DNA from: a bacterium
GTDB lineage: Bacteria; Oederibacteriota; JAAXVQ01; JAUVAV01
Length of the DNA: 64,000 bases
Direction of reading: 5' to 3'
Assembly: GCA_021108215.1 (NCBI GenBank)
Contig: JAIORK010000036.1
Coordinates: 125,171 to 189,170, forward strand
Within the stretch, counting starts at the first letter, position 1. Every line of letters starts with the position of its first letter. A model generated the notes under the pieces. The model saw only the letters and a program-made list of their open reading frames with translations, made no database searches and was not told where the DNA came from. The position numbers and the translations under genes were made by a program. This document shows positions 5,455-37,400 of the stretch, piece by piece.

Positions 5455-5526
5455 CGTATTTGCCTCGTTTGCCAAGTCAACTTGCATTACATCGTCTATC
5501 CCGGATGCCCTGCAACCCAAGATATC

Positions 5527-13056: not shown

Positions 13057-16000
13057 TTAGGCAGCACTATCCAATCCACGACGATAAAGCGGTTTGGGAA
13101 GTTGTAAGGGTTCACCCTTCCACAAGGTCGCCGGGAACATTTTCAATAATTTCCTTAATAAATAGGGTTTTTCAATAACAATCCGCGGAACAACCTGATC
13201 AATTTTAGTACCATCCCGGGTTGTGACGGTTATTGTTTCTTTTGCGATTCCAGGAGGAATTTCTCCCAAAACAGAAAGAACACCCTTACTTGCTTCGGTA
13301 CTATCCTGAACCCCTTCCAGGACACTCATAAGCCCCTGAACAAGAAACATGACTTTAGCCTGGTCCCACTTTTGGCCTAAGTTTTGGAGCGATTGCTGCA
13401 TCCATCTGCTTTGGACCAACTGTGTACTTACCTGGCTCGTGATTGATGTCTTGAGTCGATAGTGATAATACTGGGCCGGGGCAAAGGTCGCAACACCAAG
13501 CATTGTTCCTGCTACCGCCAGTTCAACACTAAAACCGCCCATCAAAGCCACACCAAGACCTGCCCAAACACTCAGAAGCAATCCAAGCATTGCTGTTTTA
13601 GCAAATCCCTGCAAACGCGGATTGGAGAGTAACAACATTAACCGCAAACTGGTCGGAACACCGCGCATTCGATTGAACCACTGCCCAAGCCGGCCTTCCC
13701 GCATATTGAGAAGTATTCCACCGGCAGGTCGCACTGCGGTTTGGGGTGTTGCCGCACCAATCTGCTGAACACGCAAAATTTGATCAATCACATTTTGAAT
13801 CGTACCGGTATCGTCCACCTGGGCGAACGCCATAGCAGACCTTTGTGCCCTCGCCTGGCTTTCCGATATCCAGCGGATCACACTATCCAGATCCTCAATC
13901 GAGATATTGTTTACTGCCTGGATCAGCACCTGCGCCTGGGCGTCACTTAAAGCCGCCTTGACAGATACATTTTTATTCATTGCATCCCACAACGCTACGA
14001 CGCTTTCACGGTTTCCCACCCGGGATAACAACAACGCATCCGGAACGGCTTGCTCTGCATTCTCCCGGAATTGCATCAGTTTTTGCGCCATCCCGGCCTG
14101 TAGCTGCGGCAACAACGCCGAAGAAACCTTGGCGGTTATTTCCTTGACCTGATCGGAATATTGATTAAAAGCAACATCATCAAGTAATGTCTGCTGCGGA
14201 ATCCCCTGCATTCGCGCATCAATCATAAAACTATATGCCCGTAACATGGCAGCTGCTTCCGCCTCTGAAATAATCCCTTCCCGGACATACTGATTGATGA
14301 CTTCATCCACCGAAGCAAAATGACGGCCATAGAGGCTGTTGGCCATCAGCATAAGATTATAAAAAAGCTTCTGTGTCTTTTTGGGCGTGATCGCTGAAAT
14401 GGACTTCTTAATCTGCTGCTTGGCAAGATAGGTCAAATCAAGTTGATACTTTATATCCGCCATAATTCCCGCCTGTATCCGAATAATATCCGCTTGCACC
14501 GCTTGCGATCCTGTCATAGCGCGGGCACCAAGTAATTTACTGCGCACCAAATAGTCTGTGTCCTGCGACCAATTTTCCAATGTTTCAATGGCATAAATTT
14601 CGTTCGTCGGATCAGACAAGTATCCCAGTTCCTTACTAAGAATACCGTCAACAACATTTTTCAGGTTTTCAACCGCTTTGTGGTCAGCATCATTTTTACT
14701 GATCCAAAACATATCCATATCTGATTCAGTGACCGGTTCTCCCAGGCGCGACATACTGCCTGCGTAAAACACGGGCGCGGTGATCACACCGCGGGTCATA
14801 AAACGCGACCGCCTGTTTTCAGGCAAACGCCCAATTGCGGCCTGCAAGGCATAAAAAAGCGCATAGTGGTTTAGAATCCTGATCATTTCCGACAACTGCC
14901 GCGTATTTTTTTCACCGCCTACTGTTTTTGCCAGCGCCTCTAAAATTTCCCGCCGTGGACTTTGGCTAAACTGTGCAATCTGCTTTTTGGCTTGCGCAAA
15001 CGCTTCATCCGAAATATCCAAAGATGCATTAAAAAGCGCTTCTTCAATATTATCGTATGGGGCCGTGGCTTGCGCTGCCCGGGCGTAGTCAGTTTTTTGT
15101 AAAAGTTCATTTAATAATCCGCTTATATTTCTGCCGGGAGTTCCGAAGGAACGCCGGCTGTCACGAGGCGTCTGCACCCCGGACATAAGCCCAATACCGA
15201 TCCCGCTTACCGCCATCGCGGCCGGTAACAGTACCGCCAAAGCGGCCGGTATTGTCAGAAATAAACCGGCTGCCAGCATCACACCGGACAGGGTAAACAC
15301 TCCGCTCAATACCAGCGCACCGGTGCGAACACCACTGCGCTCGACACGTGCGATGGCAACCGGAGCAGTAAAAAAATCAAGTGTATGCGCCATAAATTCA
15401 GCCAGACCACTCATCACCCGGTATGCCGGAGTTCCGGGTTGCTGTCGGGTAATATCCAGCCCAAGCTGCCGCATCATTTTATCCACCAGAACATGCGAAT
15501 AGGATTCATGCGCCACAATCGGCCAGGGCGCTTCGGCCACAACCTGACCGGTTACCGGATCAACCATTTTTTGCGTAACCGGATCATACGCACCCACTGG
15601 TTTTCCCCAGTTTTTCAGCATGCCGGACCAGCCGTGTTTGGCATACAGTGCCCGGCCCACAGCCGCCAGTTTGGCAGAAGGATAAAGCAAGCCGATTGCC
15701 AATCCAGGACCCATACCGACCACCGGGAGTAATAGCATCGTCCACAGCAAACTCACAACCAGGGTGTTTTTCAAACTAAGCCATTGATACCGTAAAGGTT
15801 TCGCCTGGGGCTTTCCCTGCGCATCAAAATTAATTAATAATTTATTGGAATCGTTGGAATCCACACTATATCCAAATTCCCTTTCCATGGCCGAATTAAG
15901 TTTGCCCGGCAGGAGCCGCAATATCTGCGGCGAGAGCATGCCGAAACTCTGCCGGAGATCCTGCAGGACCTTACTCCGTGCCTGCCCCAGATGCGTCCGT

Positions 16001-19000
16001 ATTTTCCTAAGCAGATCGGATTGATCGAGGCTATCCGGAAATTCATGTGCATTGTCACTGAAACGCATCATCATCTGATAGGGCACCAACCGGCCGTTTC
16101 TTTTTATGTGCACCAGAATAGAACTGTTATCGCCAATGGTGCTTACACGCCCTTCGATGAGAATACCGCCCTCACGCAAAGCCTTGCCCATGCTTTGTAC
16201 AGCTGCTTGTTTGGCCTGCTCGCTTTTGTACCAACGCAACACGTTTGTACAGCGGATGATGTCAACATTTTCCTGCTGAATCTCAAATCCGCCCAATTGG
16301 AAAGCGACATTATTATGCGCTTCCTCCAGTGCAACGATTTGGCGGTAATTCTCCAGACTGTTTTCAATGCCAATCACCTGTGCCTCACGATTGATCTCAC
16401 CGATCCGTTTGGCGGTTTCCAAAGTGGTGTCCGCATCGCGGCCAGGTCCGACCTCTATAAAAACAGGTGCCTTACCGGTCACCGGATTGTTTTGGCTCAA
16501 GTCAATCCCAATTTCCGGCAGCAAGGTATCAAACATATAATCATCCGTATCTTTCAAGCGCCCCGGCTGTGATTCGTCAGAGGTCAGGATGCCGGAAACC
16601 ACACCCATGCCTTCCACACGGGCAATAAGCGCATCCGTACTGTAACCGGTCACTGCTGTGACAATCTCATCCGCCCGGTCATGGGAAAACCCGACGCTTT
16701 CCAATGCTTCATGCAGCACAATGGCGGCAACCACCTCATTATCTTTGCGGTTATTTTCAAACTGTTGGAATGCCTTCCCGGTGATATAGACTTTCCCATT
16801 GAGATGGAATGCACCGGTTTCATAGAGATCCTGATCCGTTTCGATCCTTTTTCCGTCAACACGCCTCGCGATATGGATGGAAATTTGCGTGGCATTAATT
16901 TTTTTGATTTGTGCGGCCTCTGTCTCATCTCGGGCCGCATTGACCGCCATTTCCAGATAATCCGCCAGTTGGTTCCGGATGGGAGATGCCCGGCCGCGAT
17001 ACCGCGAGAGGGTCACTGCCGCCAGGCCTTGGGCGGAAAATACGGCATTCACAATTTCTTCAATACGGTCACGTGAAAATGCCGCAATCGTCGCAAGCGC
17101 CTTGGCCGGTTGGAGCGTGATGTTATACATGCTCTCGGTCGCGTTTTTCAATAAAGTCCCCAGTAATAATTCACCCTTTGCTCCCTGGAGTGTACCGCTT
17201 AAATTCGCTTTTTCAAGATCATTTAAAAACGCAACCAGGGTATCAACCTGCGCTTCTTCCCGTGGATACAGTTCACGATCCTTGGCAGTCGCAATCAGAT
17301 TGTCCAATGCCGACTGCAAATAGGCGGCCCCGCGTACAGGACCGAAAATTTTCATAACCCCTCGATAAATCACGGAATAAGGAACCCATTCTTTGCGCAC
17401 ACTCCAGCCCTTTTTAAAATTTTCATAAAGGCGGTAGAGATGACGCTCCGGAGGAAAATCTTCCGGAAAATCCAGTGTGGTCATATCAACCATGGCAGCG
17501 GTCCATCTGAATTTCTTTCCGACCTGAACCCGTTTAACCAAGATATTTTTAAAAGTCGGATCGAAAATGGTACCACCGATCCGGGCCAATTTCATATATT
17601 CACCCACAACAGCGATCACCGCATCTTCAAAATTTTGAAGAAATTCTTCATCCGGATTTTCAAATTCCGGCTCCCATCCTGAAATGCGCTCCCCGGGGAA
17701 ATACTCCTCAAACATCCAATCCTTGCCTACCGGTCCCATCAGCAATGCCTTGTACCTGCGTTTTTTTCGTAAAATCTCAAAAGCCTTAACTGCCTGACGG
17801 ACAACTTCAGTGTTTCCCGGCTTGTTCGTGGTTTTCAAAACCAGGGAACGAAATCCACGGCCGCTCTTGATGTTAATCAGGTAAGCGGCTTTTTCTGCGC
17901 CTTTGTCAATATAGCTAACCGAAATATAATCTTCCGGTCTGAGTTTTTCAGGAAATCCCATACCGAACAATTCTTCCAGCGCCGCGTCCAAGATATGGTC
18001 CTGCTGGATAACTTCACTGATCCGCAGTTGTTCGCTTTTTTGAATATCCGTAAAAATCACCCGGACCAGTTTGCCATCAACTGTGATCTGTTTTTCCGCC
18101 GTCTTTTTGGCCAGATACCGGCGCATCCCGAAAGAATCGCCAAAGCTTTCTTCCCAGGCATCTGAAACGATATCTTGCAGGCTGCTGCGCATTTCCTCCT
18201 GGCCGTCAAAAACCTGTGCGACAACCACATTTAAATACCGCTTCACACCGTTGATGGGGCCGTTGCGAAAAATCTGAATATGATTTTTTTCAGGCTGCGG
18301 GATCTGCGGAAATGAAGCCTGCAGAATTGACAAAATATATCCAGCATAAATGTCTTGGCATCCCATCTTGAGCGGCGCTTCTGTATTGCCGTTTTTGATG
18401 ACCTCTATTTTTTCATTACGCTTAAAATCACGACTCAGCGGTATTTTAAACCGAAAAGTATCGCCGTCCGAATCTGTGAATTCCGCAGTCCGGAAATTAA
18501 TTTTTCCCGGATAACCCTCGTCCGACCCCAGCGATCCTACCATCCCCATGGCCAGCATACCGCCGCCGGCTTCCTGATTAAAATAACTGTAAAGTCCGCC
18601 TGCGATCATCAGGATGATCATCGGGTTGCCGCGTACAAAATCAACGGCGCGCCGAGCCAGTTTGCGCAGTGTCCCAAACCGACTCACTTCCTGAGGCTGA
18701 ACCTGCAACTGCCTGCTCTGGATAATTTTAATGCCAATAAAAGGTAATACTGTTATTAAAAAACCGCTCGCAATGACGCCCACCGCAATTGGCGCAAAAA
18801 CGCCGGTTACAATGATGCCGTAAATTCCAAATGTCATGATGCCCAATCCCAGCAGGGAAATTGCGGCCCCGAGCCGAAAGAAACCCGCTTCATTGCGGGG
18901 CAGCACTGCCAGCCGGCCAGTGGTTTCACGGACCATGCGGACCTGGGCGCTTAATTCCCGATAAAAACTGGCTGCTTTTTCTTTGGCCAGATCCCGCATA

Positions 19001-22000
19001 CTCTGCCGGGCTGTTACCAGTAATTTTCGGCTGTAAGGCGTAATTTTCCCCTGCTTGGCCATACTCGCGACCTGAAGATCCTGGAACATGCGCCCGATTT
19101 TACCAGGCTGACGGACCTCCGCTGTCGGCATGCTGGTATACACAGCCGTCAGGGAAACCTGGGCATTATTGCCATAGCCGGAATTATTCATCTCCGCCTC
19201 AATGGCAGTTACAAAAGCATCAATCGCTTCATCTTCCGGTTTTCCGGATCGCAAAACATCCGTCCCGATCGTATCAATTGCCAGATGAGGCAAAGCGATC
19301 AGCTGGTCGCCGGCACTGTAGCTGATGAAATCATTCAAAAATTTAAATTTATAATATTTTGGTGTCAATTGGGCACGTTCCGCCGTATCCAGTAAGGCGG
19401 CTTCCTTCGCACTCACCAATTTACCGCCGACATCAATAAACATGGAGACAAATTTTTCCCGCATCGCCTCATCCACGGCAGCGTCGAATCCTGCCGTATC
19501 CGATTTGATCTCTTTTATAATAGCGTCCAAAGAACGTGTATCACCGGCCGCCTTCATATTCTGTGCCGTCTCTTCAGCGTAAGACTCTGAAAAACCAATA
19601 CGCGCAGTATCTATGAAATTACCGTAATACTGCCCCTCCAGCTCAATCAGGTGGGTTTCTTTGGGCGTAATCACAACCACTTGTATCTTATCCGGTCCGG
19701 TCGAGGGCGGCGCCCGGCCGATATAAACTTCAGATGAAAAATTCTTTTTCCCCCGGAGAAATTTCAAGCGCTGATCCACCGTTTCCCGCAATCCTTCAAT
19801 CGTAAAATGCCGGGGATAGAGCGTCTCGTATTTTTGCTTATGCCCGTTGCCATCCGGGCGAAATTCAGTTTTAAGTAAAAGGTTGTCCTCAAACAAGAGT
19901 TTTTGCATCTGCATCTGCTCAGTATGCGTCTCACCCAGCAGCGTGGCCCCTTCTTCTTTTATCCTCGGCTCAATCGGCTTATCCATCTGATCCACCACGA
20001 CTTGATTCTTCTTCATCCCCTTTTCAACATCCACTATCCGGCCGGGACCATACACGGCATGTTTATCCCCGCGCTTGCCGTCATGTAAAAAATCTCCGGC
20101 CAGTTCATACACCTCATCATCCCATTGATTGATATCCGTGCGATTGAGCGTCCCCTTACGCTGTTTCCGTACCATGTCATTGGGAACACGACTCGGTTTG
20201 GTGGCACCGGTGGTTGCTGTAGTCGTCAACACTGCTCCATTTTCCAGATAATCAACCCCTTGCGCACGGGCAGTTTCCCGGAGTTCCCGACTGACCAAGT
20301 CAGCCATTTTCATGTTTTTCAACTGAACATCTATTTTCAAATCTTCCATGGCCTTTTGCAGCAGCCCTTGCATCAAACGGCCGCCGGCCTGCTCCATTGA
20401 TTCACCCTCCAAATAGGCCGTACGCTGGTCCTGATCAAGATACCCTTTGAGTTCGGTTTGCAATTGGGTTATTAATTTTCGTTTTCGGGCCGCAGATAAT
20501 TCATTGAACCCGACTTTAAGCATAACGCGAATACCCATAACTTCATCACGCACCACCCGCACCGTATTCTTGGCACCAAATTTTTCATAGCGGAGATTTA
20601 TTTCATCGGCAATAGCTTTCAGGGATTGCATTTGGGTTTCATCCATACCCGGCAATTCAAACGCCATCAGCTGATTATGCATCCGCGATTGAATGGCTTT
20701 GCGGAACACTTCCAAAACCGCCTCGGTATCTGCCACGGACAAATTATCCGGCAGCACATAAATCCCTTCATCACCACCGTGGCGAATCGTAAAAATTTTG
20801 CCGGTTGCCAACTTAGGCAGTAAACGGAACGCTTCTAAAAAACGCACCTGAAAAAGTGCTTGCCGAATTTTCCTCAGAATTTCAAAGCGTCCTTTCCGAA
20901 GATATTGCTTCACACCGGGTGCCCGTGCGGTCTCAGTCATCACTGCCAGCACATCATCCAGCACACAATTTGTCAAAGCCTTACCATAGATGAGGTTGTA
21001 GGAGGAGAGGCCGTCAATATCTGAAAACGCCTCCCAAAAATCGCCGCCTTTTTCCAGAATTCTTTTACGCAGCGCCTCACCCTGTGCACGGGTCAACATT
21101 TTATTTGAGGAGAAAAACCAGCCCGTAAACCGGTTGCGCAGACGCTGCAACACACTGGATTTAAGGATGACTTCCTGATGTGCCATAGAGACCGTCTCAG
21201 CCAGAGTAAAATCAGTGGTATTAAGAATCACAGCATCTGTGACTGCCTGCAAAGGATCACGTCTCCGCGTCCGGGCAAGTTTATCTAATTGCCGCAAACG
21301 CTTCATTGCATCAACAACTTCATCTTTGGAAATCCGGCGCCGGGCTTTGCGCTCAATCCGGCTGCGTAAATCATTGTTGACCACATAAAATTTCGCCCGG
21401 GCCTGGCGGTCAAAAATCTTTGCGCCCATGGTCTGGCCGACGGCAATAATATTTTGTTCTCTGGCCAGGCGGCGCAATTGTATTTCCAGCATATCCTGAA
21501 TTGCAGGCACTTTACCCAAGGCCGTCACAATCGGTTTGAGTTTGATGCCTGCCTCGACTTCACGCACCTTGCCTGCGGCATCCAGTTGCGGAATAACCTG
21601 ATCCGTAATTTCCTGTCTGCGTTTCCTCTCCGGATTAATGAAAACCCGCATCCGACGCTCGGTCGCTGCGCGATCAAATTGCATACTCACCGCAGCTTGT
21701 TCTAAATCTCTCACAACTTGGTTTTCAACATAATTAACCAACTGCTCTTTTTTCGCTTTCAGGGTATCCAGCAGATCAATCAGATAAACAATATCCTTAC
21801 GAAACGCTTCCTTTTGACGAATTTCCTTGCGCACCTGATCAATCTCCTCATCAATTTCAGCAAGATTCTCAAAAACCGAAGCATCCAAACGTCCGCTTTC
21901 AATTGCCGCTTTCACCACCCAGGCGTAGGCACGGTAATAGACACCCGCCTCGACCAACGTGTATCCATAATATCTGGAAAGCACCTGGGCAATCTCCTGT

Positions 22001-25000
22001 TTTCCGGAAGCATCGGGTCCGTCCACGGTGATCACAAATTTAATTTTAAAATAATTGTAAACACCCCAAACCAGCACCAGCACTGAGATGGCGATCCACG
22101 CGCCGGAAATGCCCGCTATCGTACCGACAAAAAACATGGTTAGCAGTGCGCTGATTATGCCAACCACACCCACTGTAATGAATAGCGCCGAGAATAAGCG
22201 GGTGGGCCAGGCAATCTCCTGGAAAAAACTCCGAATTGATGTCATCTGTCCCAACGAATACTTCGAAAAGGTGCTGAGTTCGCTGACGGTTTGATGCGGT
22301 TCTCCCAGTACGCTTTCCAGCACTTCATGAAGAACCGCTTCACTGACAGTATGACCTTCCAATACATTAATGTATCCAATATTGCCGTGGGCGGTTTTTT
22401 CGATGGTTAAAAAAGCGCCAATCTCCTTGGCCCGTGATGGCACCCCCTTCTGCGGAAACACTTTCCTGACCTTTAAATCAACAATTTTCTGATCCCGGCC
22501 TAAAACCGCCACACTGATGGAATTTCCCTTTTCCATTTGCGTGAGTACATTGCGTAACCGGGCCAGGGTGGCTTCATACATTGTTCCGCGCAAAGGTTTT
22601 TCCATACGCTCAATTTCATAGCGCAGCAGCTCGCGCGTATACTCCGAATCTCTGGTTTCAACGTTATGTCCGAAAAAATCAAAAAAAGCATTAAGTTGTT
22701 TCTGGCTCATCAGTGAGAAACCCTGTTTAACAACAGCATCAGCCAAGTCCCCGGTCTGTGAGGCAATAATATTATTCTGTCGAGCCGTCAGGCGCATTTT
22801 TTTAAAAATCGTCGTACGTCCCTCCAGAAATTTTGTCATCATCTGTGTAAGGGTCTGCTGCGTTTCTTCCCCATAGAAACCGCGTTCCTGCAAGTTCAGT
22901 GCTATTGCCTGCTGCCGAAGATTCAATATCTTTCTGGCGGCCTTTAAAACCAGGAGTGTGTTTTTCTTTTGTTGCTCCTTGATGGCTGCCACCCCGCCTG
23001 GTTGCGCATCTATCTGAGTAATCACATTCGCCGTATTTTCAATAATGGCCGCCAAATGAGCATCATCATAATGCCGTGGGTTGCTCAATTTGGCATCAAT
23101 ACTTTCCGGATAAAGCGCTTGTTCGATAATAAACGCCAAAGCGTGTGATTGCTCAATCCCATTGGCTTGCAGTACAGCTTCGACAATTTCATGTAAAACC
23201 GTCGAAGCTCTCAGCTCGCCATAAAGTTGCCTTTCAAAAACAACACTAATCTTACCGCTAAAATTTTCATTCACCGCCAAGGCGCCAACGATTTTGTCGG
23301 TTGTTTGAATGGAAAGATTTTCCGCTGAAATGGCATGTAAATCTTTTTCAATGCTTGCCAACACCGTTTTGTCCTCGATAAAAGAATCAAGAACACTTAC
23401 CACCTCGCGGGAACGCATTTTTATATGACGGGCATAAACCTCCGTCTTTTCTTCCTGCAACGCCTCGGACCGGCTCTGCACCTGGGTAAACTCTTCCACC
23501 AACACCGGTTGCGCGCTGAGTCCGGCCACTTCAAAAGCCATGGCCCCAACCATCTGACTCTCAGACTGCAGCCGAAATTCTTTTCCCGCCTCCAGCGAAA
23601 GCATTGTATTCCCACCGTGCCTCTTGCTGCTCACCCCGGCATTGACAACCAGAACCGGAGCGGTCTCGCCCATCCCTTTACGCATATTTGCGACATACAA
23701 CTCCACATCCTCGGGCCGCGTGCTGGCAACATTTACCGAGAGGTCAACATTGACAGGTAAATTTTTATAATGGGAAGCCTGCCGCGCATCTGCACAAATA
23801 TTCAAATGCAGGACATACTCTTTCCCATCAACCTGCAGGGAAACAATATTGTCGCGGAGCGCCAACCCATCAGCAAAAGCCTGCGCAACCACCGGGTGAT
23901 CCGCCAAAAGCTTTTGAATCTGCGGCCTACCGGCCACATCGGCTGAACGGGTCCCTTGCCGGACGGCACGCAGTGTATCCAGATCACGCGCAATCGTCGC
24001 CGGAACATTGGGACGAATCACCAACACACCGTCAACCGGCATCCCTTCCGCCGACAAGCGCACACCCATAATAATATTTACATTTTTATCGTTCGCCTGC
24101 TTCTGTAAAGCATCGATGGCTTGTTCCATCTTGGCCGGATCAGCGGTCGCCATATACCGTTCAGGAAAAACCACCAACTCAGCACCATTGTGCTGCAAAG
24201 AATCAATATTGTCGCGTGTACGATTCTGCCAGTTAAAAAAATCGGTATCCACCGGATGCGGCAATTGATCCTGGACCGCCACCACACGCAAGCCGCGTCC
24301 GATTTGTTCTCCCACGGTCTGAACCGCGAGGGCTTCTTCTGAAGCCACTGCACTGCGCAGAACCGCATTTCCCATCGTCATAACTAGTTTGGCTCTTGCC
24401 TGGCGGCTGGCTTGAATGCCAATATCCTTACTGGCGCGCAGTGTCGGTGTGGTCAAATCAATAACACCGACCATTTTGCTCTGATCAAAAACAGTCATGC
24501 CTTCCACTGAATGTCCGGAGAAAAATGCCACCTTGTCAATGCCCAAAGCCGGCAAGGCCTGTTTGATCCCTCGCAGGGTGCTGATAAACTGTTTTTCCGC
24601 ACCCCTAAACCCGGGACGGTTGAAATGCGAGGAGCCGTTGTCAACACAAAGCACAGTTTGCCCGTTGATCACTGCCACACGCATGTACCCGGCGTAACCG
24701 GCGGTCCTAATATTCTCCGCATTCGGGTTGGAATAGGTGGCATGCGGCACACCGCCGCGCGAGACTACCTGGCTGCCATCCACGGCATAGGTGATAAAAT
24801 CACTGATCGTGATTGCGGACTCGCTTTCTTCCACCTGATCCATAATACGTTCAAGCGCCTGCCGAAAACCGGGATTGCGCGAGGTAAATGTATTCAGTTG
24901 CATACCCTGAACCAGCAACATTTTTTGTTCTACCAGGTTGGCCTGCAGGACCCGGACATCTTCATCTTTGCTGTAGCGTTTTGCCAAAATTTCTATGACC

Positions 25001-28000
25001 CGCTCAGCCTCAGTCAACAGTTCCATCAACCGGGCCTGATTATAGCGACCGCTGCGGTATTGGGTCAATGCGGTGTTAAAATTTTCTTTAACCGCTGCAA
25101 CCAAATCCTGTTTGGCAGCGGCACCTGAATAAGCTGTGTCAGATTCGGGTGCTGTCAATTTGCGGTCTTCCGCCTTGCTAAACTCGGCACTGACCGCTTC
25201 TATCCCCATGTCGTATCCCGCCAGCAAACGGGCCACAATTCCGGCAAATGCCTCACCGGTTGTATCACCCTTCAAACCGGCAATATGGCCGGTCTCATGT
25301 GCCAACAGCCGCATGAGTTTGGTCACATTATTTTTTGCAGCGTATTTTTGAATTTGATTGGCATTGAGGCAAATCTGATCGCCGCGCACCAATGCAACAC
25401 CGTGATCCGTATCAGACATTTTATCCGAAACCAGCACACGATAGGTCAATGCCGGCCCTTCAGCAATACTCGCGTACAACTGTACCAATGCACTATTGGC
25501 CTGCATAAAATCAAAATTAAGCTGATTTCTCAGTTTGGCATGTTCCTGACTTTCATTATAAGAAAGACTCTTTTTACGCTTGAGAAAAACATCGCGTTTC
25601 TCTTTTTTATCTCGTTCCGCAACGAGTTTATTGCGTGTTTGATCAAGCTTGTCCAACAGATCATCTTTGCTCAACGTCACGGTATTATCTTCACCCAGGG
25701 TAAAACCAATACGCGTCAGTTGAGTATTAATTGCATCTTGGACCTGCTGATTGCCATAGGCATCCAAAGGTACCGCCGCTGTCCAGGGATCATACGCTGC
25801 CAGTTCCAAACCCTTTCCCATTTTGGCTGTTTGGGAAGATTTGGATACCAGCGCTGCCATGGCAATTGTTTCACCGCCATGTTTGGCCTGCAATTGGCTG
25901 ATCACTTCAAGGACAATGTTCAATTCCGCGGTCAGGTCCGTCATCTGCTCCAAAGCATTTCCGGATTGCTGCGCGGTTGTCCGGAGATGCTGATCCATAT
26001 ACCGGCCGGCAATCATCTGCATCATTTCGGGCCATGTCATCTCATCAAACACACTATTCATTTCACTCAATTGGCTTTGGACAAATGTTTCAATATCAGC
26101 TTGTTTTCCCCGGGCGGTTTGCTGTGCATTTGTCAGTGCGGCAAGTGCTTGGGAAAAATTGTTTTGGCTGGATGAATATAAATATGAAAAATTGCGAATC
26201 AATTGGGAGGTCATGCGGGGAAATAGACTGGTCAGTTTTGCATCTGAGAGTTTTTCTAAAAGGTCGGCAGGATAGCCTTCAGGAAGTAGTTGTTGAAGGT
26301 CTTCCCTGGTTGGGGGCGCTTTGTTACTAAATAAACCTAAGGCATGTTGGGCCGCTGCCTGACGCAGCAGATCCTGCCCCATGGTGCGCAGTCCGTCCCG
26401 GATTGCGTCTTCCTTACCCTGAAAAACCGCATCATTCATGCTGTCCTGCATAAATTGATCAAAATTTCGCAACGCAGCAATGGCGGCCTGTTGCGAAGTA
26501 ATCATACCGCTCAATTTTTTCGCAACCAGCACACTCATGGCTCCCTGGTTCCCGGCCAGTGCCTGGGTGACTTCGGCATACAAGCTCTCCATGGCCGGTC
26601 CCTGAATAGCTGCCGGCAACCCGGCCAGACGCTGCCCTATCTTTTGATTAAAATTCAAAAACAGATCAACTGTATAATTAACATCCCCTGCCATGGCAGC
26701 CTGCTCTTGCGCCGCCACCCTGTCTGCAAAGTATTGATACGCCGGTATAATCGCCAGTTGTTCACCCGCATCGCCGGAACGCAGCATTTTCTGAAGATCA
26801 GTCACACTCTGAATAGCACCGTTTTTTTCTTCATAAAGTGCCACCGCTTCCACAATCGGGGCATCCGCAGCTCGACTCAAATATTCTTGCCGCTCATTCA
26901 TAAAACGACGTGTTGCTACCTCAACCGAATACCCCCGCTCCCATACAACTCTGAATACCTCCAGGATATCACCGGCGGAATACAGGCCCTCGGTGGCCTG
27001 CATGAGGGATTCGGATATTTTTTGCAGCAGCGTAACACCGAGTTCATGCACTTCGGCATTGTCGCCGGTCTTGGAAATCAATTCGGAAATTTCCGCCCGG
27101 GTCAATACCTGATCATAAGCCGTGAACACATCCATATTCACATGCTGGGTGTTCCAGCCGTCAACTGTAAACCAGCGGTCAAGAATCCTTTTCTGTCTAT
27201 CCGATAATTCCAACCCTGACGCCTCGGTATCCTGCAACACTTGCCCCGTATCTTCTCCCGGGGTTTTTCCGGTCAGGTTAATATCTCCAAGGTCAATGTC
27301 TTCCTCCAAATCAAGCACCACGTCCTCGGAAACGGAAGCATCTTCCTGTACACCAGAAGCAGCTTTGGCATAAATTCCTTTAAATTCATCCGCGCTTACT
27401 TGTTTTGCAGCAAGTACCTCTGACAATTCAATAACATTATTTTTAATTTCTTTTGCTTGTGCCAAGGTAGGTCGTATATTTGAAATAGGATTAAAGGTAA
27501 TATCCAAAACTGCTAGTTCAACATCATGCGCTTTTGATAGTGCCAACATGGCATCCCGCTGTGCCTGTGTAATATATTCCGGCAGGATGCGTTCCGGATT
27601 TATAAAATCCTGAGCACCCAATTCAAATGAATTGCGGTTTAAATGAATTGCGTTAATCAATTGCGCCAGCGGCGAGTCTCCCTTGACTTGAAGACTTTCC
27701 AGCGCAACACCTTGATTTATCTGCTCTGCCAGAGATTCCGCTTCCATGAAATCCGCTGCCAAGGCCTCCACCTGCGAAACCGGTGTGCCTTCCGTCCAGG
27801 GCATCACCCCGCTCCGGTAAGCCATCCCGGCCATGGCCAGACGGTCGGCCCGGTTGTTGATAAAATCACTCAGCGTCGGGCTGCCTTCCGCCAATGTCAT
27901 AACATTTTCCAAAGCAATCTGAAAATCAGTCTGCTTAAGTGTATTGGCGCCATAGCCGTAATTATCACTGGCCCAGGTCCTGGCACGTGCAATCAAATCC

Positions 28001-30198
28001 CCTTGCGGAAGCAAGACACTGTTGGCCAACGACTTAAATTGATTATTCTGCATCAGGGTGCCTGCGCTCCATACAAATGCAGCGCTAAAGGCAATCGGCA
28101 TCAGAGGAAATATACCCATGATTATACTGCCGGCCAGCAGCACACCGGATATCGTAGTCAACCAAACAGCAGCCAAACGATTGCCGGCAAGCATGTTTTG
28201 AAAACCTCGCCAACCTTCCCGAATGGCTGTAGGTGACAGCGTGGACAAACTATTGCTAAAAGCCAACAAACCCCTTTGCAATCCTCCGGGCCGACTCACA
28301 ATCATGGCCAGCGTGCCGAAAGCACGTGTAACCGGATTATTGATCCCGCCAATTTTTGAAATCAATCCTGTTACCGCAAAAACACCACCGCGACCTTTTT
28401 TCTCTGTTCCCAAAATATCCGCCCGTTTCTGAGCAAACTCTTCCTGAGACACAAATTGAAACATAAAATTATTCCCTTGGAGTGCTTCGCCGGGAACTGC
28501 CAATGTATAATTTTGGGTTGTATTGGGACGAATGACCACAAAATGCTCCGGCGCTTTTTCAAAGGTAAATACATAAACACCTTTTGCCGGATTGGAATTT
28601 TCCGCTTGATAGACCATCGCAACATTGGGATCATCTGCCGCATAGTTCCCCCGCATTTCGCGATAGGCTGCCTGGAGTTCTTCTCCTGCGAGCCCGTTTT
28701 CCAAAACCAATTTACGCCCCAGCTCAACCTCCCATACCGTTTCCATATAGCGTTTGAATAACGTATTGTTGAATAAACTACGGGGTGCGAAAATATTCTC
28801 ATTGCGCGCCAATAATTTTTCCAGGGGAGTTTTTTCATTGCGCAGCAGAGAAAAATAAGGATTGGCTGCGTCCGTATTGGTAATGCGGGGTTTCACCGTA
28901 ATAAACGAAACACCCTGACGGCGCAAAGCTTTTTCCACATGCGAGGCATGAAAACCGCCGGTAATCAATACCGATATCACCTGGTTACGCCGATCCATTG
29001 TTTGCATAATATTTTCCACAAACGCATGCGAGCGTTTGTCGGCAACAACATAAAATTTTGCCGCCAAATCCAAATACTGATTTATTTTCAAAACACCGGG
29101 ATCCAGATCCGGCTGGATGGCAAACCGGTAACTGATATCCTCCAGGAAGTGAAGCATCGTGGTGATTTTAAATTCTTCCCGATGGGTACGAAAATAACGC
29201 AGATCATCCGTAGTAGCGCTGATATTAACCAAATTTTCCATTACTTTCAGAATGTAGAGATAGTGGTCTAATTGGCGCTGCTCATACGAGGTATACATTT
29301 TTTTCCGAATGGCCCGTTCAAGCGTCTCCGCCTCCTGAAGCAACTTCTCATAGTCAACCGCAGCGTTTACCGGAAGCTTGTGCTCCAAAGAATAAAGCCG
29401 CATGACTTTATAGGGTTCCAAATCAACCCCGGTCGTATGCGCTTCAAGTAAAAGAAAATCGCAATAATTTTCCAGGCTGATGTTTTCATTATTAAATTCT
29501 TCCCACTTGTGATCCATCTTTGCCAAATTCATATTATACAGCGGACGTTTGAGCCGCTCCAACGCATAGCGCAAATCTTCGCAATACCCCTGACTTTCCT
29601 CATTGAGAAATTTCATCAGTGTATCGCGATTATCAACATAGAGCCTTTCCGATTCAATCCCCTGAAGAATAAGTCCGCCATCTGTGACTGCGGATTGATA
29701 TTCCGGTCCGGTAATCCGGCCGCGCTGCATAAAATATTCACTGATGTTTTTTCTGAGATCCTCCGCCGGAACCGTCGAAAGCTTGCTGACACTGACCGGC
29801 GTACTCTCACCTTCCACACCCACCAGACGCAGTTTGTTTTTCTTCATCATCCGTTCCAGCATCAAGCGGATATTGGTTTGCACCTCATAATTACAGTGTA
29901 AATCCTGAATATATACAATGGTACGTCCCGAATTGCCTTGAAAACTGCCGGTCACCCGACCCCAATCCGGTTTGATATGAATCGTATTCCCATTGGCCTT
30001 CAATGGCGTATAACCAAATTCGCCGATCAATCCGCCGGGATAAGAGCCGGCTTGAAAAGCAAACGACATAAACGGCAATAAGAAAGAAATTGAAACCAAG
30101 ATTGCCAACACCTTGGTCCACATCCGCCGCCCGGGCGTACGCCACCTATCAAGGCTGAACACGGTTTCAGGCTGGAAAGTACTTGAAATAACTTTCAT
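13057..30198 (-). CDS. 5,713-aa giant multienzyme-like polyprotein with N-terminal export signal
   Basis: Start: ATG 30196-30198 with GGGAG 10 nt upstream; the frame is open further up only from a TTG. Signal/anchor about residues 27-48. By eye, in order: TraB/ChaN-like region (DLHCNYEVQ near 99, ITGGFHASH near 412); HETGH zinc motif (1634); nitrilase-like domain about 1965-2235 (Glu in VVFPERY near 2013, Cys in LNICADAR near 2135); HExxE modules near 2336, 2623 and 4495; cytidylate-kinase-like domain about 2712-3010 with GPDASGKQ; GGDEF-like domain about 3045-3185 with HGGDEG; kinase/APH-like fold about 4085-4260 (FDPTFKN, MVDMTTLDF); class I methyltransferase about 4565-4720 (IEVGPGRDADT); HESYSH near 4897; GlnD-like nucleotidyltransferase about 5140-5165 (GSMSRLGEPVTESDMDM). 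Hydrophobic clusters separate the blocks (about 690-760, 2660-2710, 3640-3800, 4770-4810, 4960-5020, 5590-5660). It ends DSAA. The single frame has no internal stop. Function unknown; the domain names are resemblance only. Confidence 0.9.
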   Translation of the reverse strand: MKVISSTFQPETVFSLDRWRTPGRRMWTKVLAILVSISFLLPFMSFAFQAGSYPGGLIGEFGYTPLKANGNTIHIKPDWGRVTGSFQGNSGRTIVYIQDLHCNYEVQTNIRLMLERMMKKNKLRLVGVEGESTPVSVSKLSTVPAEDLRKNISEYFMQRGRITGPEYQSAVTDGGLILQGIESERLYVDNRDTLMKFLNEESQGYCEDLRYALERLKRPLYNMNLAKMDHKWEEFNNENISLENYCDFLLLEAHTTGVDLEPYKVMRLYSLEHKLPVNAAVDYEKLLQEAETLERAIRKKMYTSYEQRQLDHYLYILKVMENLVNISATTDDLRYFRTHREEFKITTMLHFLEDISYRFAIQPDLDPGVLKINQYLDLAAKFYVVADKRSHAFVENIMQTMDRRNQVISVLITGGFHASHVEKALRRQGVSFITVKPRITNTDAANPYFSLLRNEKTPLEKLLARNENIFAPRSLFNNTLFKRYMETVWEVELGRKLVLENGLAGEELQAAYREMRGNYAADDPNVAMVYQAENSNPAKGVYVFTFEKAPEHFVVIRPNTTQNYTLAVPGEALQGNNFMFQFVSQEEFAQKRADILGTEKKGRGGVFAVTGLISKIGGINNPVTRAFGTLAMIVSRPGGLQRGLLAFSNSLSTLSPTAIREGWRGFQNMLAGNRLAAVWLTTISGVLLAGSIIMGIFPLMPIAFSAAFVWSAGTLMQNNQFKSLANSVLLPQGDLIARARTWASDNYGYGANTLKQTDFQIALENVMTLAEGSPTLSDFINNRADRLAMAGMAYRSGVMPWTEGTPVSQVEALAADFMEAESLAEQINQGVALESLQVKGDSPLAQLINAIHLNRNSFELGAQDFINPERILPEYITQAQRDAMLALSKAHDVELAVLDITFNPISNIRPTLAQAKEIKNNVIELSEVLAAKQVSADEFKGIYAKAASGVQEDASVSEDVVLDLEEDIDLGDINLTGKTPGEDTGQVLQDTEASGLELSDRQKRILDRWFTVDGWNTQHVNMDVFTAYDQVLTRAEISELISKTGDNAEVHELGVTLLQKISESLMQATEGLYSAGDILEVFRVVWERGYSVEVATRRFMNERQEYLSRAADAPIVEAVALYEEKNGAIQSVTDLQKMLRSGDAGEQLAIIPAYQYFADRVAAQEQAAMAGDVNYTVDLFLNFNQKIGQRLAGLPAAIQGPAMESLYAEVTQALAGNQGAMSVLVAKKLSGMITSQQAAIAALRNFDQFMQDSMNDAVFQGKEDAIRDGLRTMGQDLLRQAAAQHALGLFSNKAPPTREDLQQLLPEGYPADLLEKLSDAKLTSLFPRMTSQLIRNFSYLYSSSQNNFSQALAALTNAQQTARGKQADIETFVQSQLSEMNSVFDEMTWPEMMQMIAGRYMDQHLRTTAQQSGNALEQMTDLTAELNIVLEVISQLQAKHGGETIAMAALVSKSSQTAKMGKGLELAAYDPWTAAVPLDAYGNQQVQDAINTQLTRIGFTLGEDNTVTLSKDDLLDKLDQTRNKLVAERDKKEKRDVFLKRKKSLSYNESQEHAKLRNQLNFDFMQANSALVQLYASIAEGPALTYRVLVSDKMSDTDHGVALVRGDQICLNANQIQKYAAKNNVTKLMRLLAHETGHIAGLKGDTTGEAFAGIVARLLAGYDMGIEAVSAEFSKAEDRKLTAPESDTAYSGAAAKQDLVAAVKENFNTALTQYRSGRYNQARLMELLTEAERVIEILAKRYSKDEDVRVLQANLVEQKMLLVQGMQLNTFTSRNPGFRQALERIMDQVEESESAITISDFITYAVDGSQVVSRGGVPHATYSNPNAENIRTAGYAGYMRVAVINGQTVLCVDNGSSHFNRPGFRGAEKQFISTLRGIKQALPALGIDKVAFFSGHSVEGMTVFDQSKMVGVIDLTTPTLRASKDIGIQASRQARAKLVMTMGNAVLRSAVASEEALAVQTVGEQIGRGLRVVAVQDQLPHPVDTDFFNWQNRTRDNIDSLQHNGAELVVFPERYMATADPAKMEQAIDALQKQANDKNVNIIMGVRLSAEGMPVDGVLVIRPNVPATIARDLDTLRAVRQGTRSADVAGRPQIQKLLADHPVVAQAFADGLALRDNIVSLQVDGKEYVLHLNICADARQASHYKNLPVNVDLSVNVASTRPEDVELYVANMRKGMGETAPVLVVNAGVSSKRHGGNTMLSLEAGKEFRLQSESQMVGAMAFEVAGLSAQPVLVEEFTQVQSRSEALQEEKTEVYARHIKMRSREVVSVLDSFIEDKTVLASIEKDLHAISAENLSIQTTDKIVGALAVNENFSGKISVVFERQLYGELRASTVLHEIVEAVLQANGIEQSHALAFIIEQALYPESIDAKLSNPRHYDDAHLAAIIENTANVITQIDAQPGGVAAIKEQQKKNTLLVLKAARKILNLRQQAIALNLQERGFYGEETQQTLTQMMTKFLEGRTTIFKKMRLTARQNNIIASQTGDLADAVVKQGFSLMSQKQLNAFFDFFGHNVETRDSEYTRELLRYEIERMEKPLRGTMYEATLARLRNVLTQMEKGNSISVAVLGRDQKIVDLKVRKVFPQKGVPSRAKEIGAFLTIEKTAHGNIGYINVLEGHTVSEAVLHEVLESVLGEPHQTVSELSTFSKYSLGQMTSIRSFFQEIAWPTRLFSALFITVGVVGIISALLTMFFVGTIAGISGAWIAISVLVLVWGVYNYFKIKFVITVDGPDASGKQEIAQVLSRYYGYTLVEAGVYYRAYAWVVKAAIESGRLDASVFENLAEIDEEIDQVRKEIRQKEAFRKDIVYLIDLLDTLKAKKEQLVNYVENQVVRDLEQAAVSMQFDRAATERRMRVFINPERKRRQEITDQVIPQLDAAGKVREVEAGIKLKPIVTALGKVPAIQDMLEIQLRRLAREQNIIAVGQTMGAKIFDRQARAKFYVVNNDLRSRIERKARRRISKDEVVDAMKRLRQLDKLARTRRRDPLQAVTDAVILNTTDFTLAETVSMAHQEVILKSSVLQRLRNRFTGWFFSSNKMLTRAQGEALRKRILEKGGDFWEAFSDIDGLSSYNLIYGKALTNCVLDDVLAVMTETARAPGVKQYLRKGRFEILRKIRQALFQVRFLEAFRLLPKLATGKIFTIRHGGDEGIYVLPDNLSVADTEAVLEVFRKAIQSRMHNQLMAFELPGMDETQMQSLKAIADEINLRYEKFGAKNTVRVVRDEVMGIRVMLKVGFNELSAARKRKLITQLQTELKGYLDQDQRTAYLEGESMEQAGGRLMQGLLQKAMEDLKIDVQLKNMKMADLVSRELRETARAQGVDYLENGAVLTTTATTGATKPSRVPNDMVRKQRKGTLNRTDINQWDDEVYELAGDFLHDGKRGDKHAVYGPGRIVDVEKGMKKNQVVVDQMDKPIEPRIKEEGATLLGETHTEQMQMQKLLFEDNLLLKTEFRPDGNGHKQKYETLYPRHFTIEGLRETVDQRLKFLRGKKNFSSEVYIGRAPPSTGPDKIQVVVITPKETHLIELEGQYYGNFIDTARIGFSESYAEETAQNMKAAGDTRSLDAIIKEIKSDTAGFDAAVDEAMREKFVSMFIDVGGKLVSAKEAALLDTAERAQLTPKYYKFKFLNDFISYSAGDQLIALPHLAIDTIGTDVLRSGKPEDEAIDAFVTAIEAEMNNSGYGNNAQVSLTAVYTSMPTAEVRQPGKIGRMFQDLQVASMAKQGKITPYSRKLLVTARQSMRDLAKEKAASFYRELSAQVRMVRETTGRLAVLPRNEAGFFRLGAAISLLGLGIMTFGIYGIIVTGVFAPIAVGVIASGFLITVLPFIGIKIIQSRQLQVQPQEVSRFGTLRKLARRAVDFVRGNPMIILMIAGGLYSYFNQEAGGGMLAMGMVGSLGSDEGYPGKINFRTAEFTDSDGDTFRFKIPLSRDFKRNEKIEVIKNGNTEAPLKMGCQDIYAGYILSILQASFPQIPQPEKNHIQIFRNGPINGVKRYLNVVVAQVFDGQEEMRSSLQDIVSDAWEESFGDSFGMRRYLAKKTAEKQITVDGKLVRVIFTDIQKSEQLRISEVIQQDHILDAALEELFGMGFPEKLRPEDYISVSYIDKGAEKAAYLINIKSGRGFRSLVLKTTNKPGNTEVVRQAVKAFEILRKKRRYKALLMGPVGKDWMFEEYFPGERISGWEPEFENPDEEFLQNFEDAVIAVVGEYMKLARIGGTIFDPTFKNILVKRVQVGKKFRWTAAMVDMTTLDFPEDFPPERHLYRLYENFKKGWSVRKEWVPYSVIYRGVMKIFGPVRGAAYLQSALDNLIATAKDRELYPREEAQVDTLVAFLNDLEKANLSGTLQGAKGELLLGTLLKNATESMYNITLQPAKALATIAAFSRDRIEEIVNAVFSAQGLAAVTLSRYRGRASPIRNQLADYLEMAVNAARDETEAAQIKKINATQISIHIARRVDGKRIETDQDLYETGAFHLNGKVYITGKAFQQFENNRKDNEVVAAIVLHEALESVGFSHDRADEIVTAVTGYSTDALIARVEGMGVVSGILTSDESQPGRLKDTDDYMFDTLLPEIGIDLSQNNPVTGKAPVFIEVGPGRDADTTLETAKRIGEINREAQVIGIENSLENYRQIVALEEAHNNVAFQLGGFEIQQENVDIIRCTNVLRWYKSEQAKQAAVQSMGKALREGGILIEGRVSTIGDNSSILVHIKRNGRLVPYQMMMRFSDNAHEFPDSLDQSDLLRKIRTHLGQARSKVLQDLRQSFGMLSPQILRLLPGKLNSAMEREFGYSVDSNDSNKLLINFDAQGKPQAKPLRYQWLSLKNTLVVSLLWTMLLLPVVGMGPGLAIGLLYPSAKLAAVGRALYAKHGWSGMLKNWGKPVGAYDPVTQKMVDPVTGQVVAEAPWPIVAHESYSHVLVDKMMRQLGLDITRQQPGTPAYRVMSGLAEFMAHTLDFFTAPVAIARVERSGVRTGALVLSGVFTLSGVMLAAGLFLTIPAALAVLLPAAMAVSGIGIGLMSGVQTPRDSRRSFGTPGRNISGLLNELLQKTDYARAAQATAPYDNIEEALFNASLDISDEAFAQAKKQIAQFSQSPRREILEALAKTVGGEKNTRQLSEMIRILNHYALFYALQAAIGRLPENRRSRFMTRGVITAPVFYAGSMSRLGEPVTESDMDMFWISKNDADHKAVENLKNVVDGILSKELGYLSDPTNEIYAIETLENWSQDTDYLVRSKLLGARAMTGSQAVQADIIRIQAGIMADIKYQLDLTYLAKQQIKKSISAITPKKTQKLFYNLMLMANSLYGRHFASVDEVINQYVREGIISEAEAAAMLRAYSFMIDARMQGIPQQTLLDDVAFNQYSDQVKEITAKVSSALLPQLQAGMAQKLMQFRENAEQAVPDALLLSRVGNRESVVALWDAMNKNVSVKAALSDAQAQVLIQAVNNISIEDLDSVIRWISESQARAQRSAMAFAQVDDTGTIQNVIDQILRVQQIGAATPQTAVRPAGGILLNMREGRLGQWFNRMRGVPTSLRLMLLLSNPRLQGFAKTAMLGLLLSVWAGLGVALMGGFSVELAVAGTMLGVATFAPAQYYHYRLKTSITSQVSTQLVQSRWMQQSLQNLGQKWDQAKVMFLVQGLMSVLEGVQDSTEASKGVLSVLGEIPPGIAKETITVTTRDGTKIDQVVPRIVIEKPYLLRKLLKMFPATLWKGEPLQLPKPLYRRGLDSAA

Positions 30199-30329
30199 GA
30201 AAAGGTCACTCCCTTCACAGACTTCATCTACAGGTCCTGCAAGGCACATAGGTGCACTGCTTTTTCCCTGCAGATCAAGCAAAGGATACAGATATCCTAT
30301 GGTAATAAAAATATATTTCTACAGAGTTA

Positions 30330-34412: not shown

Positions 34413-37400
34413 TTACGCCGCACTGCCCGTGATCTTCAATTTGGGTTGCTTACCGGGAGCAACATTAATATTAATGCCTACACCCAGACTCTTTAACCTC
34501 CGAATCAGACGCCCAATCTTATAATCATGCTTCAGTGCCTGCGGTTCAACCGTCGGTGTCATGGTCATGGCCAATTGGCTTTCATATTGTTTGACATGCA
34601 TATCAATATCAAATTTCAAGAAACCCAAAACTTGCGTCGTCTCACGCGCCAACTGAATCTTCATCTCACGGTCGAGTTTGGATTCCATCACCCGAACCAG
34701 ATGAGAAAGCACCATCCGGATCGCGCGGGTCCGGTTATTTTCCGATAACATCTGCTCGGTACCCTTTATTTTCAACCCTTCTACTGCAGATGTAAATTGT
34801 ACATTCTCCAACAACTGGCGTGTGTCCAGCCCCAGGGAATGAACCTGTTCCTGCTGAGCTTGATTGGCAAAACCAAATTCAGCATTGCGCATCCCTTCCA
34901 AAACCGCATTGGACGGATTAACATTAAACGCAATTTGATCAGCCATCACCCAACTCAGAAGTCCCTGCATGCCGATCGCCAGACCAACGACCGCAATCAC
35001 AGCACCAACAATCGCAGGAATCACAGCCGACATCATCACCCCGACCACAATACCGCCGGCCAAGGCCAGTGCTGCACCAAATCCGAACAGCGTTCTTCCA
35101 TACTGCTTGATTGCCGAGCGCGGCTCAGTACCCACCAGAATATCCTGTCCGATTTGTCTGGTCAGCACACGCTGCATGAGTGACGGATTCATCATCTTAG
35201 TATAACTGGCATAGGAAATACCGAACTGCGCTTCAAACGAGGATTCCAGATAGACACGGTCATCCCGGGCCAGCGTCCGGTCCTCAATTTGCGCGGACAG
35301 TTTCTGCATCAGCGGCAATGCCGTATTTTCCAGTTCACCCATGGCCTGATTGAGCTCAACCAGATCATCATTGGTAAACTCACGACCTTCAAATTTGCTC
35401 TTTAAATACTCATAAAGATTGATTTGCAGCGCTTGGCCGTCTTGGACACGGGAAATACCGGCCCAACGCAAACCCGTCATTTCGGCCTGCCCGACCACTT
35501 CTTTGAGAGCTTCTCCGTCAAGAATATACTGTTTGATAAATTCGACGACCGCAAACTGCCCAAATTCCCTGAAATGCGGGCTCTGCTGCAGCTTGGATTC
35601 CAGGGCATTATACTCAGCATCACTGAACATGGAACTGATCGCCATAATGGTCTGCGTCAACAATATATTGGAAAATTTCTGATCCAGGAACCGGATGGAA
35701 TCACGACCAACCCGAATTCTGGAACCTGCCTGATTCACAATATTTTCAGATTCCGCCACTGTATCCGAACCAAGATCAACGGCATGAACACTATCCAGTG
35801 CATTGGGAACCAAACTAAAAACAGCTGCCAACAAATGCATATACCCATAATGCCGCGCCTGCTGATGAACATTAAGATCTATGTTTCCAAAACGGGATTC
35901 CTTAAGCAGACTAACGAGTGTGTTGACCGCCGTCTGACCGTCCGCTTCTTTTCCACCCATCTGTTGCTTCCAGGTGTCTACCAATGATCGGCCTGCCTGT
36001 ATCTGATTTTCCGCACTGCGTGTGCTTTCAACCGCACCTGCCACTTCCGGTTTTTGATGATTAATGGTCACACGACTTTCCTTCTCTACTCTGACGATCA
36101 AACCTTGCTCTACAATAGTACCTGTTGTCGCGGAAATTGCGCAGACCATACCCACTGGTCCTCCCAATAGGACACCAATCAATGCTGCCGTAATCACAGT
36201 TGAAAACAAGCGACTGCCCAATGATGTCCAACGACCGCTCATTGCCTGCACAATTTCCTGTGCCTTACCTGGTATAAATCGTGTTGCCTGGTTGAACAAG
36301 GGCTGTGCCAAAGGCATTAATAACAACCCACTGGCCAAGCCCAGTGTCGGTAATCCTGTGAATCCGAGCAAAGCAAATGCTGCCGCACCAATCAACAGGG
36401 TCGATGTCCGGCTCGGCACAAGATACCTGTCTTTGACATTGAACAGCGGTAAAATAAATCTTGCCTGCTGCATGTGCCGGAGCATGTTGCTCCAACCTTG
36501 CGTCATTCCTTTCACAGTTCTCTTGGCCCAACTCTGCATCGCCAAAGTCTCACGCGCAGCAACTTCTAATTCGCCTGGTGTAACAGGAATATTGTTTCTG
36601 CTTTCGATAAGCTTCTGGAGCGATGCACTGACTTTAATCGTTGTAAATTGATTGAAATAACGAACTCTATTTAACTGCTGATTTATATAATTATTGGCCC
36701 CAAAAAGATCCATGGTCAGTCCCTGATAGCTCATGGTGCTATGATGGGGATTGGCTTGCAATTCAGGTATTTCCATACTGACTCGTGCAATATTCTCAAC
36801 GGCATTCATATAACTACGCTTCATAAGGGAATTGCCGCGATTCAAAACACGTATTTGGCTGACAATATTATTAGATTCACCCATGGTTTGGTAGAGTTTC
36901 CAGGTTTCGCCGAACTTTTCCGTCATTTTAGCGTCAACCCATTGCTCCCCATATTGTCCCTGATATTTGGCAACTGTTTCCGAATTTTTCTGCTGCCAGG
37001 CATCACTCTGCCAAGTCTTGGCATATTCGGTCACCAGCTGGATCTGTGCACCGGATGCCTGAATGGCACTGGTACGCGCCTCAAAATATCCGGCAAGCTG
37101 TTTGATAACAGGAATCCGCTGCCAACCGGTGTTTGTCTGCAACCGAGAGGCATTGTAATTGGGTAAGGTCAACACGCGTGAAAGCGCGGTCGCAGGTGTC
37201 CCTGAGCGACGTGCAGCTATATCCGTGATGCCCTGGTATTTCCGGAGCAGTTTGGGAAGGTTGCTCTCAACCGTCTTGGCCAGCTCAGCCATATATTCCG
37301 GAGATCCCTTCGCCACCTTGACCGAAACGGTTTCCTCGGTCTGAATGCCGGCCTGAGTTTTCCGCGATGCCTGGGTTTTCTGCACATCCACCTCGTTCAA

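Follow-up and report, generated by a model that had tools for sequence, protein, structure and literature searches.

The 64,000-nucleotide stretch of DNA analysed here (the window) covers positions 125,171 to 189,170 of contig JAIORK010000036.1 (C36) in assembly GCA_021108215.1, a 3.56-Mb, 97% complete bin of the Oederibacteriota lineage. Its minus strand carries an open reading frame (ORF) of 17.2 kb, here called ORF q, which encodes a giant protein with an export signal. ORF q belongs to a family with a grammar in which a shared N-terminal leader and a recurring tail of small residues enclose a swappable mosaic middle. The features of the constant ends are as follows.

13057..30282, minus strand: whole ORF q, 5,741 codons from TTG; coding in 19/19 codon windows
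30058..30129, minus strand: signal sequence, aa 24-47 (alignment, flank charges); predicted signal peptidase site SFA|FQ
28765..30021, minus strand: leader catalytic-like domain, aa 60-478; model with a predicted local distance difference test (pLDDT) of 81.7; structural matches of TIKI/EreA/ChaN type
29893..29904, minus strand: leader motif D99-L-H101-C102, invariant in 27/27 rows
29812..29814, minus strand: leader Glu129, 28 residues past His101, invariant in 27/27 rows
28948..28950, minus strand: leader His417 in GGFH, invariant in 27/27 rows; GG[FY]H in 54/54
13060..13089, minus strand: C-terminal tail LYRRGLDSAA (sequence letters, family comparison)

A single frame with a shared leader and tail

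The first-pass annotation described one uninterrupted frame of 5,713 amino acids (aa) and named no strand. That frame holds, on the minus strand; a plus-strand reading of positions 13057-30198 is ruled out by its many stops. The ATG start at 30198 yields the 5,713-aa database form P0002, whose aa numbering is used throughout. Codon usage was compared over all six frames in windows of 300 codons, with 250-1,499-aa ORFs from the same genome as reference, and the frame of ORF q beats the other five in every one of the 19 windows. We give next to no weight to an assembly or gene-calling artefact that would have fused separate genes into one frame, because this coding signal is uniform and collinear relatives of ORF q are present in other assemblies; the 54 giant homologues introduced below also argue against it. 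The point in favour of an artefact is that two sister giants of the same genome, C4b and C12, look frameshifted near their ends, through sequencing error or truly, so that assembly errors may occur in this genome. Both sister giants (G000:C12:9064-39851 and G000:C4:1-30909) exceed 9,000 aa, and another open frame continues past each end. Translations at the ends of contigs C4 and C8 have the peptide MRSQARNDAIAWSNGII in common, which suggests assembly breaks within repeats.

The leader is a module of ~455 aa that joins a Sec-type signal to a predicted TIKI/EreA/ChaN-like fold with a His-Glu-His site. It stands at the front of 10 ORFs in this genome and of 54 giants 3.2-7.7 kaa (thousand aa) long, the latter gathered from 2,371 candidates at E<=1e-10, limited to 0.55-1.75 times the query length, and including P0002 itself and its sister P0021. 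The export signal proposed earlier turned out to be a family-wide feature: the flanks of 45 leader-region hydrophobic runs carry mean net charges of +3.4 (N-side) and -0.5 (C-side), and the site [TSAGI][WF]AF occurs in 31 of the first 36 homologues. D99, H101, E129 and H417 are all invariant in the 27 aligned rows, and the same His-Glu spacing of 28 residues is found in VvRRSP and Bcr135 (PMC6254334). The fold, a parallel beta-sheet flanked by helices, was placed by structure comparison of the predicted model; a PDB sequence search with the leader gave no match up to E 10, and Pfam searches of the 27 rows returned no consistent family (commonest weak match in 4/27, best E of any 0.0023). The leader is thus like the TIKI/EreA/ChaN superfamily in its predicted fold and DxH-28-E-GGxH site, and differs from it in heading giant mosaics and in its first acid, which is Asp (DxH) instead of the ExH of VvRRSP; equivalence to the 2His/2Glu site is drawn from motif and order, not from residue-level superposition. 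On this modelling we predict a TIKI/EreA/ChaN-type hydrolase with an intact-looking site.

The nearest named relatives of the leader come from metagenome-assembled genomes (MAGs) labelled candidate division FCPU426, Goldiibacteriota, Firestonebacteria or simply 'bacterium'. Four Omnitrophota MAGs hold stand-alone leader copies of 529-539 aa with neither body nor AA tail (L165, L167, L168 and L169; L167 and L168 are nearly identical and count as two of the four, and L169 is open at its 5' end). These copies are possibly an ancestral form.

At the other end of the chain, 46 of the 54 leader giants end in Ala and 33 in Ala-Ala (AA), as compared with 74 and 5 of 849 control ORFs of 100-2,999 aa from the same genome. 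The own-genome census used longest-ORF calling on 1.34 of 3.56 Mb (10/67 contigs, some partly), picked for holding leader ORFs or GGDEF matches. The rule was first seen on the own-genome giants and then tested on other sets. Removal of C-terminal redundancy leaves A in 44/52 and AA in 31/52, and the 19 most distant leader giants end in A in 17 cases and in AA in 7. Among own-genome ORFs of at least 3,000 aa, AA closes 8/12 (Fisher p 8.6e-14); the remaining four end in TSA, in QMH and, for C4b and C12, after the seeming frameshifts. In the GTDB leader loci, which represent 78 of 227 relatives, A and AA close 19 and 14, respectively, of the 29 complete leader ORFs, and AA is found in 23/42 ORFs of at least 1,000 aa vs 13/539 shorter ones, among them several that resemble cut-off giant ends. 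At most 4 or 5 candidates were scored in each of the 59 relatives' genomes.

The tail extends to a second family of giants. Two large genes adjoin ORF q:

34413..57893, minus strand: gene r, upstream giant of 7,826 aa, no leader module, tail ITGSAA
6080..12889, minus strand: gene p, downstream leader protein of 2,269 aa, tail GASA

Gene r has no BLAST match at 1e-5 to the 54 leader giants, and six members of its leaderless family, gene r included, end in A in 6/6 and in AA in 5/6. Two of its relatives, of 7,247 and 6,537 aa, lie on contig C49 of the same genome, the three ending in GSAA, GAAA and STSA. In relative G001 the neighbours r, q and p are all AA-ending.

One explanation of the xAA tail is that it works as a degron of the SsrA kind, which would deliver unexported chains to ClpXP and have no sorting or envelope role. 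ClpXP recognises -LAA ends, and the genome's own tmRNA encodes the tag DEQQFALAA (G000:C21:4926-5281). However, none of the 54 giants has Leu at position -3, and 37 have S, G, N, V or Q there, which places them outside the -LAA class and makes the degron improbable. The genome has one match to an S41 (Prc/CtpA-type) protease. Prc is reported to prefer nonpolar tails, and substrates of the Prc/Tsp tail-specific proteases resemble the giants in a nonpolar C-terminus of small residues (PMC7481392). By this analogy, the S41 protease is our guess for a reader of the tail.

Composition and exchange of the mosaic middle

The middle of ORF q contains the following modules.

25801..27222, minus strand: module aa 993-1466; in P0003, P0004 and P0005 it has changed places with the module that follows
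24925..25776, minus strand: module aa 1475-1758 with HETGH (HExxH) at aa 1634; weak reprolysin-like Pfam match, 0.015
23515..24417, minus strand: nitrilase-like block, aa 1928-2228, exactly missing from P0004 and P0005
22909..23496, minus strand: HExxE module 1, aa 2235-2430 (alignment); model pLDDT 91.7, predicted zincin-like fold
22249..22911, minus strand: region aa 2430-2650, second HExxE at aa 2624; homologous segments in P0006 and P0009
21178..22032, minus strand: cytidylate-kinase domain, aa 2723-3007 (Pfam); P-loop GKQ, GQT in place of GRD
20686..21093, minus strand: GGDEF-like domain, aa 3036-3171, motif GGDEG (homologues, profile-profile match)
17209..18501, minus strand: kinase/APH-like region, aa 3900-4330, by motif only; aligns to P0006
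16615..17196, minus strand: third module with an HExxE, aa 4335-4528; P0036 matches it in three stretches
15919..16476, minus strand: class I methyltransferase-like region, aa 4575-4760; Methyltransf_12 1.8e-4, under cut-off
13822..15042, minus strand: nucleotidyltransferase-like region, aa 5053-5459, GS...SDMD, by motif; no relevant profile match

The earlier description of a giant exported chain with several cytosolic-type folds and metallopeptidase-like modules was right in kind, but of the six named folds just one passed its curated cut-off when Pfam was run on ORF q in ten slices (E<=1). This is the cytidylate kinase (E 4.7e-10 and 1.7e-08 in overlapping slices; 40.0 and 34.9 bits against a cut-off of 26), whose fold is certain. 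Cytidylate kinases carry GKS/T in the P-loop and bind substrate through the Arg of GRD; the window copy lacks these active-enzyme residues. Across the giants the P-loop Ser/Thr is kept in 2/8 copies, and the seven copies covered at GRD (six from alignments plus the window copy) have Arg in 0/7 and Gln in 7/7. A separate, normal stand-alone cytidylate kinase is encoded elsewhere in the genome. Given the lost residues, 'enzyme-like' should not be taken to mean 'enzyme'.

Support for the other folds is graded. PF00990 (GGDEF) gave no Pfam match in ORF q, and a profile-profile comparison with the genome's own GGDEF domains gives a weak match (E 5.9e-5, probability 65%); in place of the active diguanylate cyclase signature GG(D/E)EF the window has GGDEG, and all five homologues have GGDE[G/I/A] with the final F lost. 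The nitrilase block has three weak matches that agree with each other (lnt 0.0053, CN_hydrolase 0.14, PDB nitrilase 0.11, the last barely ahead of three unrelated chains at 0.2), none past a cut-off. The Glu and Cys of its Glu-Lys-Cys triad are present in the window copy, the Lys is without clear match, and both Glu and Cys are lost in relative G003. The methyltransferase match is borderline, since matches of similar strength below cut-off in the same scan look spurious (Vps53_N 8.3e-4, Imm44 0.004). Two of the proposed folds found no profile support: the kinase/APH region has conserved motifs, with neither a Pfam nor a relevant PDB profile match, and the nucleotidyltransferase-like GS...SDxD is kept in 4/4 rows. 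Of the HExxH/HExxE motifs noted earlier, a single HExxH lies at aa 1634, and HExxE occurs three times, at aa 2336, 2624 and 4496. HExxE module 1 had no relevant match among PDB profiles, and from its model we predict a zincin-like, metallopeptidase-like domain.

Relatives of ORF q differ by gain, loss and reordering of modules. P0004 and P0005 are without exactly the nitrilase block, and modules aa 993-1466 and aa 1475-1758 stand in reversed order in P0003, P0004 and P0005. P0012 and P0013 share a leader region of 84% identity and no further BLAST match. P0028 and P0029 are 97% identical save for a ~640-aa block found in one only, which is itself ~45% identical to another part of the chain; the pair appears to be a snapshot of module gain or loss. 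Four of nine loci were inspected for the neighbourhood of ORF q. The order r-q-p is kept in G001 and the q-p pair in G001, G004, G003 and G007, and at this conserved locus q measures 1,124 aa (G001), 1,718 aa (G007), 3,312 aa (G004) and 5,741 aa here.

The cargo of the family is broad. Pfam matches over cut-off in four sister giants comprise sugar-phosphate isomerase, glycosyltransferase, HD, metallophosphatase, rhomboid, PPDK, phosphorylase, histidine-kinase-type ATPase, cellulase, GH130 and GNAT, to which the precomputed Pfam accessions of the 54 homologues add, among others, SecA, phosphoglucomutase, radical SAM and DUS. Near its end, the C12 leader giant contains a rhomboid protease domain (Pfam 2.3e-27) that has GASG and His motifs.

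The worn state of part of this cargo bears on the possibility of a bulk structural protein, in which an adhesin or surface coat would be built from captured enzyme domains as inert bricks, with catalysis irrelevant. The losses in cytidylate kinase and in the G003 nitrilase agree with it, as do the absence of a GEGK Walker A motif from the two SecA-bearing giants P0016 and P0046 and the coat role proposed for the Velamenicoccus giant ORF (PMC10066038). We nevertheless regard it as unlikely: almost every member keeps the leader site, and other cargo retains its active-site motifs, namely TASH in 3/4 phosphoglucomutase-bearing giants, the radical-SAM CxxxCxxC in P0043, NxGCP in P0041, HRD and DFG in P0051, and GASG in the C12 giant.

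Membrane topology and a proposed model of cargo export

Along the chain lie six hydrophobic patches, identified by hydrophobicity.

28051..28179, minus strand: hairpin-like patch 1, aa 674-716
22042..22215, minus strand: hairpin-like patch 2, aa 2662-2719
18712..18891, minus strand: hairpin-like patch 3, aa 3770-3829
15673..15783, minus strand: hydrophobic patch 4, aa 4806-4842
15172..15336, minus strand: hairpin-like patch 5, aa 4955-5009
13474..13614, minus strand: C-terminal hydrophobic patch, aa 5529-5575

Many of the hairpin-like patches are long and uncharged, with shorter ones alongside, and we predict that such hairpins hold the chain in the envelope; a literature search for a colicin-type hairpin returned nothing. 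Hydrophobicity and charge give conflicting signals as to the membrane side of the middle. The main rival to an exported middle is a membrane-tethered cytoplasmic mega-scaffold, with the leader outside, the first patch returning the chain, the middle working in the cytoplasm and the hairpin loops facing out. It draws on the positive flanks found on both sides of the long internal hydrophobic runs, on loops poor in Lys and Arg, and on cargo folds of cytosolic types that use nucleoside triphosphates or S-adenosylmethionine. On the other hand, the 39 first-after-leader runs (start aa 540-820) have flank charges of +1.15 and +0.97 and a median length of 33, unlike a single out-to-in crossing, and the cytidylate-kinase copies have lost catalytic residues, and a stand-alone copy exists in the genome. 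On balance, the scaffold seems to us rather doubtful.

The first-pass annotation proposed delivery into another cell, weaving through the membrane or a self-cut polyprotein, each of which may apply. To that reading the present analysis adds the ten-member paralogous family, the TIKI-like leader and the xAA tail, the last two being likely parts for processing or sorting. We favour, tentatively and at somewhat less than an even chance, a model of Sec export, hairpin anchoring in the envelope and proteolytic maturation of exchangeable cargo acting outside the cytoplasm. Sec and signal peptidase I would release the leader outside, where, with its His-Glu-His site kept, it could attack the chain itself or partners, as a peptidase or hydrolase. 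A factor specific for C-termini would recognise the free xAA end, and the single S41 protease found is a candidate for it. The middle would be cargo, its enzymes partly live and partly worn-out, displayed or passed to another cell, and handled in the manner of MARTX-type toxins, with both ends kept and the middle swapped. A bolder extension, which we hold to be possible and rather unlikely, is that giant exported polyproteins of several little-known phyla share a general cargo system: a self-processing TIKI-type leader and a universal xAA tail would accommodate any of dozens of cytosolic enzymes between them, and a dedicated extracytoplasmic machine would read this tail on at least two unrelated giant families in order to anchor or cut the cargo or hand it to neighbouring cells.

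Relation to known systems

The earlier statement that no described system has such a combination was too strong, as giant mosaic proteins with methylases, peptidases and transmembrane segments are described in Omnitrophota (PMC10066038, PMC12419801). In the portions available, the giant ORFs of the sister lineages Omnitrophota and Elusimicrobia are like ORF q in their very long frames, their transmembrane segments and their mixture of domains from enzymes, peptidases and methylases, and roles in predation or symbiosis are proposed for them (PMC10066038, PMC12057145, PMC12419801). They are described as having few annotated domains, poor conservation, or lipocone/LysM content, whereas the giants studied here have in common a leader fold that is conserved, a tail that recurs and modules that are plainly exchanged. 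Five sister leader ORFs and the contig-end-truncated C8b frame exceed the 20 kb of an Omnitrophota-type single frame; ORF q lies below it.

MARTX and polymorphic toxins share with the giants export, constant ends around a variable part with module exchange, and processing modules. The giants differ in that their cargo consists mostly of metabolic and signalling enzymes and their tail of only a few residues; Pfam scans of ORF q and the four sister giants contained no RTX-repeat or cysteine-protease-domain families. The polyvalent proteins of phages and conjugative elements likewise combine many enzymatic domains with zincin-like peptidases thought to process the chain, but they travel with phage or plasmid DNA (PMC5512222), while ORF q has a Sec-type signal. 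Pfam searches of the neighbouring window ORFs gave no phage- or conjugation-type matches except one sub-cut-off TraF_2.

A type IX secretion route for ORF q was considered and rejected, as its last 611 aa have no C-terminal domain match in Pfam or NCBIfam. A type IX-like system may exist in the lineage: a ~2,130-aa ORF at C12:146350 has a SprA_N match (9.4e-6), and at window positions 2879-5520 a subtilase with FlgD-Ig and a CHU_C-like end adjoins an OMPP1/PorV-like protein. At the far side of the window, positions 58234-63999 hold a frame of at least 1,921 aa that starts with near-identical repeats (NVYGLTGATVTNTNITSNPFNGLN...) and leaves the window at its 5' end. Scans of the window found nothing at gathering score in Rfam and no tRNA.

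Giant ORFs are already known from sister phyla. No description of the leader and tail grammar was found among the titles and abstract starts searched, although unlisted papers and full texts may contain one, nor in the parts available of PMC10066038, PMC12057145, PMC12419801, PMC6254334, PMC5512222, PMC3482391, PMC7481392 and PMC8542988.

Study of giant bacterial ORFs has been hampered by bodies that seem to lack both annotation and conservation. The common leader and the common tail provide a handle on them, by which members of the family can be recognised and tallied (54 from one search), likely active-site residues can be named, and export and processing can be tested piecewise on small constructs. 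The mosaics show enzyme domains moved, swapped and worn out within one exported chain. Should the tail serve sorting or processing, some of the largest proteins of bacteria would carry a C-terminal signal of a new kind.
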